The notes under the pieces are model-generated. The model ran no database searches. It saw only the letters and a list, made by a program, of their open reading frames with translations, and was not told where the DNA came from. From assembly GCA_023247085.1 (NCBI GenBank), contig JAHFHC010000020.1:1-16952 (forward strand): 16,952 nucleotides of DNA, given 5' to 3'. Origin of the DNA: Microcaldota archaeon. GTDB lineage: Archaea > Micrarchaeota > Micrarchaeia > Norongarragalinales > UBA8480. Shown here one piece after another: positions 10,869-14,966 of the stretch. The position numbers were made by a program, and so were the translations under genes. Positions within the stretch are counted from its first letter, which is position 1; the number at the start of each line of letters is the position of its first letter.

Positions 10869-10925
10869 GCTAACCGATTCTTTTTTTACTAATTGCCGCA
10901 GTAGCTCAGCCTGGGAGAGCGTTCG

Positions 10926-10986
10926 AAGCAAATGTGCGGGGTTAGAAACGCTTTCAGCGTTTCATATCCGTACCTCTGTTGATGAA
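10926..10986 (+). other. tRNA-Phe intron 1 (61 nt, position 30/31)
   Basis: A bulge-helix-bulge can be drawn. The central helix is CGTT (10920-10923) with GATG (10981-10984), two Watson-Crick and two G-U pairs. The bulges are CGA (10924-10926) and AAG (10985-10987). The inner helix is AGCA (10927-10930) with TGTT (10977-10980). Deeper in the intron GTGCGGG pairs with TCCGTAC, and AAACGC with GCGTTT. The junction predicted by the motif is exactly the one the tRNA fold needs. Confidence 0.75.
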
Positions 10987-10993
10987 GCTGAAG

Positions 10994-11043
10994 TCGGCAC
11001 TTTACATCCTTCAGATGTTTAGTGTCGTTCTCTCAAGCTGGAA
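10994..11043 (+). other. tRNA-Phe intron 2 (50 nt, canonical position 37/38)
   Basis: The boundaries are set by the anticodon loop, which needs CTGAAG then A then CCGAT. The central helix is weak: CTGA (10988-10991) against CTGG (11038-11041), with three pairs and one A-C mismatch. The bulges would be AGT and AAA. The outer helix is the anticodon stem, which exists only after intron 1 is removed. An internal hairpin, ACATC/GATGT, lies at about 11004-11018. Confidence 0.6.
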
Positions 11044-11065
11044 ACCGATGTGTCGCTGGTTCAAA

Positions 11066-11127
11066 TCGGCTTTTCTTTTTGTAAAAAGAAAAGTCCGTGG
11101 GAAAAGAAAAACTTTTTCCGTTGAAAA
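11066..11127 (+). other. tRNA-Phe intron 3 (62 nt, position 59/60 in the T-loop)
   Basis: The motif is clear. The central helix TTCA (11060-11063) pairs perfectly with TGAA (11122-11125). The bulges are AAT (11064-11066) and AAT (11126-11128), and the outer helix is the T-stem itself. The intron body has two hairpins, CTTTTCTTTTT/AAAAAGAAAAG at 11070-11093 and GGGAAAAG/CTTTTTCC at 11099-11119. Confidence 0.8.
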
Positions 11128-11303
11128 TCCGGCCTGCGGCATCATATTTAAACCTGAGATTGAAAATTAATTTTGAATCTATTTTTCACAGTTTTAATTC
11201 TGATTAATATCTGTTTACCTAGCTTGTGAAACGCTTTTAAAGAACTGTAAGTACAATGAGTTGAACTAACGTATGGAAACTCGTTACTATCGGCTGATTA
11301 TAA

Positions 11304-12308: not shown

Positions 12309-12731
12309 TCAGCCAATTTCATGCGCCTCTTTTAACGTTTCTAATAATTTTCCAGGGTTTTGAATTTTAACGTCGTTAAATTCAATCAAATTGGTTAAGT
12401 GTGGATCCCAAGAAGCAATGTAGTTTGAGCTGGAATAAACTGCGCATTCGACAACTCGGTTGTCGTCTGGATCAGTTTTAACAACATCAAGTCTAATGTC
12501 TGGCTCAACTAATTTGAGGAATTGTAAATAAACGTCAACCATTTGCTCTGCTCTTTCAAGTGGAACTTTGTGATCGCGTTGTACAACTTCTTTGAACTCT
12601 TCCATCAAAGTTTTTGAAGTGTAGCCGGTTACTTTGCCTTCGGCTACTAAGTGTACTAAATTGTAAGACGCACCTGTTTCCGATAGTAAGGCAGATAGAA
12701 GTACGTTTGTGTCAAACGTTATCTTCACCAT
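12309..12731 (-). CDS. PIN-domain toxin ribonuclease (VapC-like)
   Basis: PIN domains are magnesium-dependent RNases, and in toxin-antitoxin pairs they often cut tRNA or rRNA. This 140-residue protein has the N-terminal signature VKITFDTNVLLSALL with D7. Other acidic residues are E44/E45 in TLMEEFKEVV, D90 in DPDDNRVVECA, and D109 in IASWDPHL. The catalytic set looks intact, so it may be active. The pattern is closest to the PIN_3 group (putative toxin-antitoxin toxins of about 140 residues). The start is ATG 12731, 9 nt after the antitoxin stop, with AGGAGA overlapping the antitoxin stop as ribosome site. This order, antitoxin then toxin, is typical for such modules. The target is unknown. 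Confidence 0.85.
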   Translation of the reverse strand: MVKITFDTNVLLSALLSETGASYNLVHLVAEGKVTGYTSKTLMEEFKEVVQRDHKVPLERAEQMVDVYLQFLKLVEPDIRLDVVKTDPDDNRVVECAVYSSSNYIASWDPHLTNLIEFNDVKIQNPGKLLETLKEAHEIG

Positions 12732-12740
12732 TCATTTCGA

Positions 12741-13016
12741 CTATCTCCTGTGTTTGTGTTGCGTTTCCACAATTTTTTTAACTGAAGTGTCTAGCCCTTT
12801 TTCTGCTGCGTGTTGCCGACTCCATTTCACCATTTCTTCAAAAGCCTTTACTGGTTCTTGAAATTTTAATTTCTTGAGTAGGATTGAGTCTGCATCTTTT
12901 CGAGCAAAGACTACGAACGTAGAGCCTGCTTCGAGCCCCATTTCATCTCTAATCCCTTCAGGGATAACTACTTGTCCTCTTGAAGACATTTTTGTTATCT
13001 GTCCTTGGCTCTCCAT
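12741..13016 (-). CDS. AbrB/SpoVT-type antitoxin
   Basis: The 91-residue protein has a swapped-hairpin AbrB DNA-binding domain at about 5-50: GQITKMSSRGQVVIPEGIRDEMGL, read as the usual SSRGQVVIP core. The C-terminal half, a likely toxin-binding helix, contains FEEMVKWSRQHAAEKGL and a basic tail QHKHRR. It should neutralise the downstream PIN toxin and repress its own promoter. The ATG at 13016 has an excellent ribosome site, AAGGTGG, 7 nt upstream. A perfect palindrome 22-42 nt upstream is the natural operator candidate. Confidence 0.88.
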   Translation of the reverse strand: MESQGQITKMSSRGQVVIPEGIRDEMGLEAGSTFVVFARKDADSILLKKLKFQEPVKAFEEMVKWSRQHAAEKGLDTSVKKIVETQHKHRR

Positions 13017-13058: not shown

Positions 13059-13176
13059 GCGTTTTGGTGCTTGAACGAAACGGTTCTGAGCTTCTGCTCT
13101 TATTAGGCCTTCGGCGGTTCTGTTTTTTTCTATTGTCATATTGTTTTTAATCTTGTTTTGTCTTTTATTTCCTGTT

Positions 13177-14820
13177 ATGCGTTTTCCTTTCTTTGCTTTG
13201 TTCGCGTTGCTGTTATTTTCTACATTCGCCGTAGCTACTGTTGATTTGGAGCCGAAGTTAATTGGTTCATCTAAAGCTGTGATTGAGATTACGTGGGATA
13301 TTGATTTTAATGGCCAGAGGCCAGCTAGTTCATCGTTTACTTCGTTTAATTTTCTTAACACGTCTTACCAGTCAGCGTCGTTTACTTCTTCCCTTCCTTT
13401 CACCACTAAAGTGGATGAATTTGAAAATAATTTGATTACTTTTCAGTTGAATCCGGCTTTGAATCGGCAAAATGTTACTTTGACTAGTATTGTTGATGTA
13501 ACTGATTCGCGGTTTTTTGAAGATGTTTCTGGTTCTATGGATCGCTACGTTGACAATAGTCAATATGTTGTGATTACGCCGGAGATAAGCGCAAAGGCTA
13601 GGGAGCTAATTGGCTCTGAACAAAATAAGTTCAAGCAAATGGCGATTTTGTCCGCGTGGGTGTATAACAATGTCCAGTATGATTTAGCATACAAGGATCG
13701 TTTGCTTCCAGCAAATGAAGTTTTTCAAGTCCGAAAAGGGGTTTGCAATGAGTTCAGTCACTTGCTAATTGCAATGGCTCGCAGCGTAGGAATACCTGCA
13801 CGTTTTTCAGCGGGTTATGTTTACAGTGGAGAGATCTGGGCGGCACATGCGTGGACTGAAGTTGCAATTGACGGCAAGTGGTACCCTTTTGACCCAACTT
13901 ATAACGAAGGAATTGTCCTTGATGCCACTCATTTTAAATTCGCTAATGGCGTTGACCAAGGTGATGTAGTTGAACAGCTTTCTGCAACTGGAGCGGTAGA
14001 CGTTAGTAAAGCGGTGCTTTTACGGTTGCATCGCATATCTTTTTTAGAACGAAATAATTTTGCCACTCCCCCAATTTTGCGAGTGCAGGTTTCAAATGTA
14101 ACGGCGGCTTCTAATTCAGTTCAACAAGTATCCGCCATGCTAAAGTCAACTTCAAATATTCCAGTTGCATATCCGCTTGACTTGGACGTGCCCGATGAAG
14201 TGAAAACTTTGACTGACCGCGCTACTTTGATTTACGTGTTGCCTGGTCAGGAAGTGTATGCTAATTGGAGTGTGTTAATGCCTCCAAATTTGAATAAGAG
14301 TTTTGTTTACACTTTTTCAGTCATAGTGCGTTCCCTTGGCGTATCTGCCACTAGCTCATTTCAGGCTCGTGAAGGCGCGCCGGTTTCGGTTTCTGCGTTG
14401 CAAGTAAAAGAAGTTCGTTTCAAACAACCAGATTCTTTATCGCTTTTAATTAAAAACTCAGGTAACACTGGTTTTTCAAACATATCCGTGCAAGTCACTT
14501 TATCTAATCAATCGTATAGCAAAGTTTTTTCACTTGAAGCGGGGAGGGAATCAGAAGTTTTGTTTTTGTTATCCGGTGCGAATTTCTCGCAACAAAACCA
14601 AGTCATGGTGCGGTTAACTGCAGAGGACTATTCTTTTGCACAGTCTTATTTGTTGAGCCCAGTTTCTACTCAAGTGCCTTTACTTCCACAGTTTAACTTA
14701 CAAACTAAGCGGGCTATTAGCGCAAATAGCCTTTTTGACCTCATTTACTCGAAATGGCAGTTCATAGCAATAATTTTAATATTACTAGTAGCGATTATAC
14801 TTGTAAAAATGCGATCGTAG
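13177..14820 (+). CDS. Membrane-anchored transglutaminase-like surface protein
   Basis: The 547-residue protein has a signal peptide (MRFPFFALFALLLFSTFAVA), an extracellular body and a C-terminal membrane helix (QFIAIILILLVAIILVKMRS). The transglutaminase-like core lies at about 140-250. Its catalytic triad is complete: C190 in KGVCNEFSHLLIAMA, H224 in WAAHAWTEV and D239 in WYPFDPTYNEG. Such domains in archaea act as proteases or amide-forming enzymes on the cell surface, and the substrate is unknown. Residues 290-500 are beta-rich, Ig-like repeats (LRVQVSNVTAASNSV, then SLSLLIKNSGNTGFSNISV). ATG 13177 gives a clean signal peptide, while an in-frame TTG at 13141 would add 12 residues. The last 10 nt are also the first 10 nt of tRNA-Gly, and the stop TAG is tRNA positions 8-10. 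Confidence 0.85.
   Translation: MRFPFFALFALLLFSTFAVATVDLEPKLIGSSKAVIEITWDIDFNGQRPASSSFTSFNFLNTSYQSASFTSSLPFTTKVDEFENNLITFQLNPALNRQNVTLTSIVDVTDSRFFEDVSGSMDRYVDNSQYVVITPEISAKARELIGSEQNKFKQMAILSAWVYNNVQYDLAYKDRLLPANEVFQVRKGVCNEFSHLLIAMARSVGIPARFSAGYVYSGEIWAAHAWTEVAIDGKWYPFDPTYNEGIVLDATHFKFANGVDQGDVVEQLSATGAVDVSKAVLLRLHRISFLERNNFATPPILRVQVSNVTAASNSVQQVSAMLKSTSNIPVAYPLDLDVPDEVKTLTDRATLIYVLPGQEVYANWSVLMPPNLNKSFVYTFSVIVRSLGVSATSSFQAREGAPVSVSALQVKEVRFKQPDSLSLLIKNSGNTGFSNISVQVTLSNQSYSKVFSLEAGRESEVLFLLSGANFSQQNQVMVRLTAEDYSFAQSYLLSPVSTQVPLLPQFNLQTKRAISANSLFDLIYSKWQFIAIILILLVAIILVKMRS
14774..14783 (+). promoter_or_regulatory. Possible internal promoter for tRNA-Gly
   Basis: TTTTAATATT lies inside the end of the transglutaminase gene, about 30 nt before the tRNA 5' end, the right distance for an archaeal TATA box. 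It falls in the codons of the membrane helix, so the AT-richness has another explanation. Confidence 0.3.
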
Positions 14821-14863
14821 TCTAGCCTGGTAGGACACTGCCTTGCCAAGGCAGAGGCTCGGG

Positions 14864-14911
14864 AAAGCCTTTTTTAATTCTTTTAAAAAAATTAATAGGG
14901 GTTTTCGAGAA
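14864..14911 (+). other. tRNA-Gly intron 1 (48 nt, position 53/54)
   Basis: The central helix CTCG (14858-14861) pairs perfectly with CGAG (14906-14909). The bulges are GGA (14862-14864) and AAT (14910-14912), and cutting them gives exactly the ends the T-arm needs. The intron body folds as a hairpin with AAGCCTTT and AGGGGTTT arms. The helix uses T-stem bases 49-51, so the T-stem cannot form until this intron leaves. Confidence 0.8.
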
Positions 14912-14917
14912 TTCAAA

Positions 14918-14952
14918 AACTATTTCCCTATAACTAGGGGAGTGGCTGGTCC
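14918..14952 (+). other. tRNA-Gly intron 2 (35 nt, position 59/60)
   Basis: The central helix TTCA (14912-14915, in the microexon) pairs with TGGT (14947-14950) over three positions (A-U, C-G, U-G) with one U-U mismatch. The bulges are AAA (14916-14918) and CCT (14951-14953). The body is an 11-bp hairpin, 14920-14930 with 14935-14945. The outer helix is the T-stem, available only after intron 1 is spliced. The position matches intron 3 of the tRNA-Phe gene. Confidence 0.7.
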
Positions 14953-14966
14953 TCCCGACGGTCGCA

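Follow-up and report, generated by a model that had tools for sequence, protein, structure and literature searches.

Among archaea, tRNAs with two or three bulge-helix-bulge (BHB) introns at non-canonical sites are known from Thermoproteales such as Pyrobaculum and Thermofilum (PMC8450103, PMC4390854, PMC3218864). Published cases include up to three introns per tRNA, at non-canonical sites that include the T-loop, and extend to close introns that are removed in order (PMC8450103, PMC4390854, PMC6379350); the authors of tRNAscan-SE 2.0 noted that some introns lie so close together that the motif of one becomes available only after excision of the other (PMC8450103). Multi-intron tRNAs have also been reported in ARMAN-1 and ARMAN-2 (PMC4033280), and 92-95% of tRNA genes in the Asgard lineages Atabeyarchaeia and Freyarchaeia are interrupted, with more than half multi-intron and many introns non-canonical (PMC11291895). 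Epsilon-type splicing endonucleases cut both relaxed BHB and bulge-helix-loop (BHL) motifs (PMC6379350, PMC12397907). In permuted archaeal tRNAs, the junction usually falls at position 59/60 (PMC3978253).

Here we describe a tRNA-Gly(GCC) gene with two predicted introns in one T-loop, from a tiny uncultured micrarchaeon. The DNA analyzed (the window) is a 16,952-nt stretch, contig C21 of a 0.89-Mb genome that is 92% complete. This host genome (G000) was compared with two congeners (G001 and G002), another genus of the family (G003), and a third genus (G004).

Results

Architecture of the tRNA-Gly(GCC) Locus

The acceptor stem of the gene is GCGATCG/CGGTCGC with the discriminator A at 14966, and the coordinates given by the initial annotation proved exact (Table 1). 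That annotation described a tRNA with all stems present but 90 nt in place of a 7-nt T-loop, and 90 nt do separate the T-stem strand TCGGG from its partner CCCGA. The first splice motif (BHB1) has the perfect 4-bp central helix that had been claimed, CTCG/CGAG (4/4 pairs), flanked by bulges. The second (BHB2) is relaxed, again as described: TTCA/TGGT forms three standard pairs plus U.U (3/4 pairs in all four species discussed below), its 5′ bulge comprises 4 nt (AA↓AA) instead of 3, and intron 2 contains the 11-bp hairpin. Removal of both introns leaves a 73-nt tRNA with the anticipated TTCAAAT loop. Where Micrarchaeota tRNA-Gly genes are uninterrupted, their T-loop is identical to the microexon.

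ARAGORN called tRNA-Gly(gcc) only after both introns had been removed; no call was obtained with either one retained, and no tRNA was reported in the unspliced window. The Rfam tRNA model gave merely a partial match of 19.5 bits at the locus, so the expectation that annotation tools may miss this gene holds for both. Rfam matches to isrD and TP53TG1 near the locus fell under the gathering score and were taken as chance. No single-intron solution for the insert yields a TTCRA loop. Of 20,000 dinucleotide shuffles of the 90-nt insert, 119 (0.6%) could be resolved into two introns as well as the real sequence, and 0 had the exact observed split; these statistics alone are modest support, and the comparative evidence is much stronger. 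A second, weaker microexon that can be drawn in the real insert, TTCGAG (3+3 pairs), was excluded by the relatives.

Table 1. Features of the tRNA-Gly(GCC) locus and of other tRNA genes (window coordinates unless a locus is named; ↓, cut site)
Feature	Location	Strand	Description
tRNA-Gly(GCC) precursor gene	14811-14966	+	156 nt, mature 73 nt; cloverleaf, 5-bp T-stem, anticodon loop TTGCCAA
Exon 1 (positions 1-53)	14811-14863	+	3′ end is TCGGG at T-stem position 53
Candidate intron 1 (53/54)	14864-14911	+	48 nt; BHB1 CTCG (14858-14861)/CGAG (14906-14909), bulges GG↓A and AA↓T
Microexon TTCAAA (positions 54-59)	14912-14917	+	6 nt; invariant in four species, flanking introns differ
Candidate intron 2 (59/60)	14918-14952	+	35 nt; relaxed BHB2 TTCA (14912-14915)/TGGT (14947-14950), cuts AA↓A and CC↓T
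Intron 2 hairpin	14920-14930/14935-14945		11 bp
Exon 3 (positions 60-73)	14953-14966	+	T60, T-stem CCCGA, acceptor CGGTCGC, discriminator A
Upstream ORF	13141-14820		Overlaps tRNA-Gly at 14811-14820
Small ORFs	12309-13016	-	140 and 91 aa
tRNA-Phe(GAA)	10895-11141	+	Three introns; spliced 74 nt
tRNA-Phe intron (30/31)	10926-10986	+
tRNA-Phe exon GCTGAAG	10987-10993	+	7 nt; holds whole anticodon
tRNA-Phe intron (37/38)	10994-11043	+
tRNA-Phe intron (59/60)	11066-11127	+
tRNA-Pro(TGG)	L136 1460-1653		Introns at 37/38 and 53/54; 53/54 intron absent in G001

The upstream ORF terminates at a TAG that is made of tRNA-Gly nucleotides 8-10. An in-frame-looking TAG stands at the equivalent tRNA-Gly position in G001, so the protein gene and the tRNA may be co-transcribed. 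The two small ORFs lie next to each other and resemble, by eye, a pair of PIN-domain toxin and AbrB-type antitoxin.

Conservation in Related Genomes

A search for related loci returned one close relative and one distant bacterial protein. The former, Candidatus Micrarchaeota archaeon isolate nzgw34, is the nearest named relative and encodes a 92% identical protein adjoining the same tRNA (contig JAHFHN010000017.1). An intron pair at the same positions around TTCAAA was found in G000, G001, G002, and G003, with a mature length of 73 nt in all. In G002 the introns measure 48 and 35 nt as in the host; the exons of these two genomes are identical (73/73) and their introns match in 81 of 84 aligned columns. 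G001 has introns of 117 and 53 nt and matches the host at 64 of 73 exon positions, intron 1 being unalignable (40/120). The introns of G003 measure 50 and 90 nt. The gene in G004 has a D-loop intron and, of the T-loop pair, the 59/60 intron only; no Gly(GCC) gene was located in either G005 or G006. When 301 genomes of the class were scanned with a pattern for a 53/54 intron of 33-63 nt in Gly(GCC), it was matched as such in G000, G002, and G003 only; the other matches were uninterrupted tRNAs or unrelated sequence, and the 117-nt intron 1 of G001 exceeds the length limits of the pattern.

The T-stem partner of nucleotide 49 (nucleotide 65) and its partner in the intron 1 helix each vary along with it. 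Nucleotide 49 is U in G000 and G002 and C in G001 and G003. U49-A65 occurs with the splice helix CTCG/CGAG, and C49-G65 with CCCG/CGGG (G003) or CCCG/UGGG (G001). Position 49 is tracked by two partners, as would be expected if it paired with one of them in the precursor and with the other after splicing, in the mature tRNA.

A degenerate tRNA pseudogene carrying a T-loop insertion would also account for the failure of standard finders to recognize the gene, but its exons match at every position between sister species, no stem is broken, the T-stem change is compensated, and four species share one architecture with no replacement gene found. The pseudogene reading is thus largely refuted, and we regard it as highly improbable. 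The initial annotation had proposed two comparisons that bear on this point. Orthologous tRNA-Gly loci in relatives are intact rather than degenerate, and searches of the host genome, in its 92% complete assembly, found no second Gly(GCC) gene, uninterrupted or otherwise. Split and permuted tRNAs do exist in archaea, and an insert could be an assembly artefact, but here a single 156-nt stretch holds every part in collinear order, in a layout common to four separate genomes, which makes such origins scarcely credible.

We conclude, with a probability of about 0.92, that this is a functional tRNA-Gly(GCC) gene with BHB introns at 53/54 and 59/60 that are cut by an ARMAN-like epsilon-type endonuclease and joined by tRNA ligase. 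The direct observations are two junction pairs, conservation with covariation, the finding of no other copy, and the presence of an endonuclease gene. Cleavage and ligation of the precursor are predicted from its sequence. Recognition of the spliced form and the relatives together confirm the two T-loop introns and 6-nt microexon of the initial annotation.

Splicing Endonuclease and Proposed Order of Intron Removal

The host genome contains a match to PF01974, an endonuclease ORF that lies in two pieces around a 10-N assembly gap, an interruption that weighs against the splicing model. The pieces match ARMAN-2 4fz2 with E values of 3.7e-82 and 8.5e-43 and cover chain positions 12-180 and 198-387. 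Residues aligned to the catalytic Y236, H251, and K282 and to Y160-K161 of the specificity loop are conserved, as is QYGTYK (numbering and roles from PMC6379350 and PMC12397907). With read-through of the N gap inferred, the predicted enzyme fits the epsilon-2 (ARMAN-type) plan of three fused units with a specificity-loop Tyr-Lys.

BHB1 would engage T-stem nucleotides 49-52 and, in the fold of the excised core, could be framed by pairing of the microexon UUC(A) with the variable-loop region. For BHB2, the outer helix would be the re-formed T-stem and the inner strand the same UUCA. The two motifs are mutually exclusive, so excision of intron 1 and ligation of its flanks should precede the cutting of intron 2; in any other order the 6-nt exon would come free and be lost. 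Some folding results count against this scheme. In the unconstrained fold of the whole precursor, the T-stem was preferred over BHB1 in three species (G000, G001, and G002), G003 being the exception; the GGA bulge of the excised G000 BHB1 core can pair weakly with UUU; and a forced BHB2 lies 3.0 to 4.9 kcal/mol above the free fold, with one mismatch in each of the four species. A reading that differs in order alone has both introns real and intron 2 removed first or independently, its 11-bp hairpin being accepted as a BHL. Epsilon-type enzymes do accept relaxed BHB and BHL motifs (PMC6379350, PMC12397907), and the hairpin is present in every fold that contains intron 2, but with intron 1 in place and BHB1 formed, the T-stem that frames BHB2 is impossible. 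We therefore consider this order less likely and favor removal of intron 1 before intron 2.

T-Loop Introns in Other tRNA Genes

Cut sites were assigned after the second bulge base, and intron gain or loss between sister species provides a test of this rule at both positions. At 59/60, G000 has an intron in Ala(GGC) where the genes of G001 and G002 have none, and applying the rule to G000 regenerates the TTCGATT loop of the other two. In Pro(TGG), the G000 intron at 53/54 has a perfect CCTG/CAGG helix, and the rule likewise reproduces the uninterrupted G001 gene, whose T-arm is contiguous.

T-loop introns are the rule in the host genome. A scan of the fetched host loci gave 18 candidate 59/60 introns, 15 of which were judged to lie inside tRNA genes (at least 15 in the genome), and a partial, hand-read survey of the searched loci counted seven uninterrupted genes among at least 30 tRNA genes; the T-arms of Asn, Val(GAC), Thr(GGT), and Arg(TCT) were read by eye. 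The two introns 6 nt apart, put forward as an extreme case, are supported as such and thus mark the far end of a pattern seen across the genome.

Many of the 59/60 introns, e.g., in Ala(GGC), Gly(TCC), and Phe, belong to one sequence family (AAGCCTTTTCTTT...AAAGAAAAGCC...GGGAAAAGAAAA) of ~58-65 nt, found at host loci L013, L012, L084, L135, L139, L141, L143, L144, and L145 and in the tRNA-Phe gene of the window (Table 1). The family occupies many different tRNA genes, and its presence or absence varies between sister species: the tRNA-Phe T-loop intron shares 91% identity with that of a G001 Leu gene, and none occurs in G002 Phe. The pattern looks like recent intron transposition, which has been reported for Thermoproteales (as cited in PMC4390854). 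The other tRNA-Phe introns are also found singly, 37/38 alone in G002 and 30/31 alone in G005, and the spliced tRNA-Phe is identical at 72 of 74 positions to the intronless genes of G004 and G006.

Directly past tRNA-His, at L009, a copy resembling the Asp/Gly T-loop introns of G001 (AACAGCCCTTTCTTTT...AAAGGTCCGT...CCCCCAAAGAAAAA) is located outside tRNA sequences, and this element may therefore also be a free dispersed repeat. The tRNA-Ser(GCT) gene of G003 (L161, contig C5) has a very long T-loop insert containing a T-arm-like GGGTTCGAATCC, perhaps an intron within an intron.

We tentatively suggest, at slightly less than even odds, that the genus has a mobile BHB-intron family aimed at tRNA T-loops, mainly at 59/60 and in most tRNA genes seen. 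Gly(GCC) would have been invaded at 53/54 as well, so that splicing would have to proceed in two obligate, ordered steps, with the 6-nt exon serving first in the outer helix, next in the central helix, and finally as the T-loop.

Discussion

The gene would be a limit case of archaeal tRNA splicing: the whole T-loop motif TTCAA resides on a 6-nt exon, so the tRNA elbow could not form before both splices. Its precursor offers an ordered-splicing substrate that is testable in vitro, and the differences between sister species make tRNA intron gain directly observable. Genomes of this type can seem to lack tRNAs because standard finders miss such genes.

The initial annotation placed archaeal multi-intron tRNAs mainly in Thermoproteales. 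They are known there, and like the present gene they have several BHB introns at non-canonical sites, but Thermoproteales belong to another phylum and have a heterotetrameric endonuclease, in contrast to the epsilon-type enzyme of the present host, a member of the Micrarchaeota. Dense non-canonical tRNA introns are thereby extended to Micrarchaeota with an epsilon-type enzyme. ARMAN-1 and ARMAN-2 belong to the same phylum as the host, and their homologous epsilon-2 endonuclease has the same catalytic and loop residues. Atabeyarchaeia and Freyarchaeia form a lineage unrelated to the host, and T-loop intron pairs are not described in the consulted part of PMC11291895. No description of a single T-loop with two introns flanking a 6-nt exon was found in literature outside the key surveys (Sugahara 2007, 2008; Tocchini-Valentini 2009), and priority is therefore not claimed. 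Since multi-intron tRNAs, T-loop introns, and ordered close introns are already published, the present gene belongs to a known kind, that of multi-intron archaeal tRNAs processed by an endonuclease of broad specificity; what is unusual is its geometry, with both introns in one loop around a 6-nt exon, and its setting.
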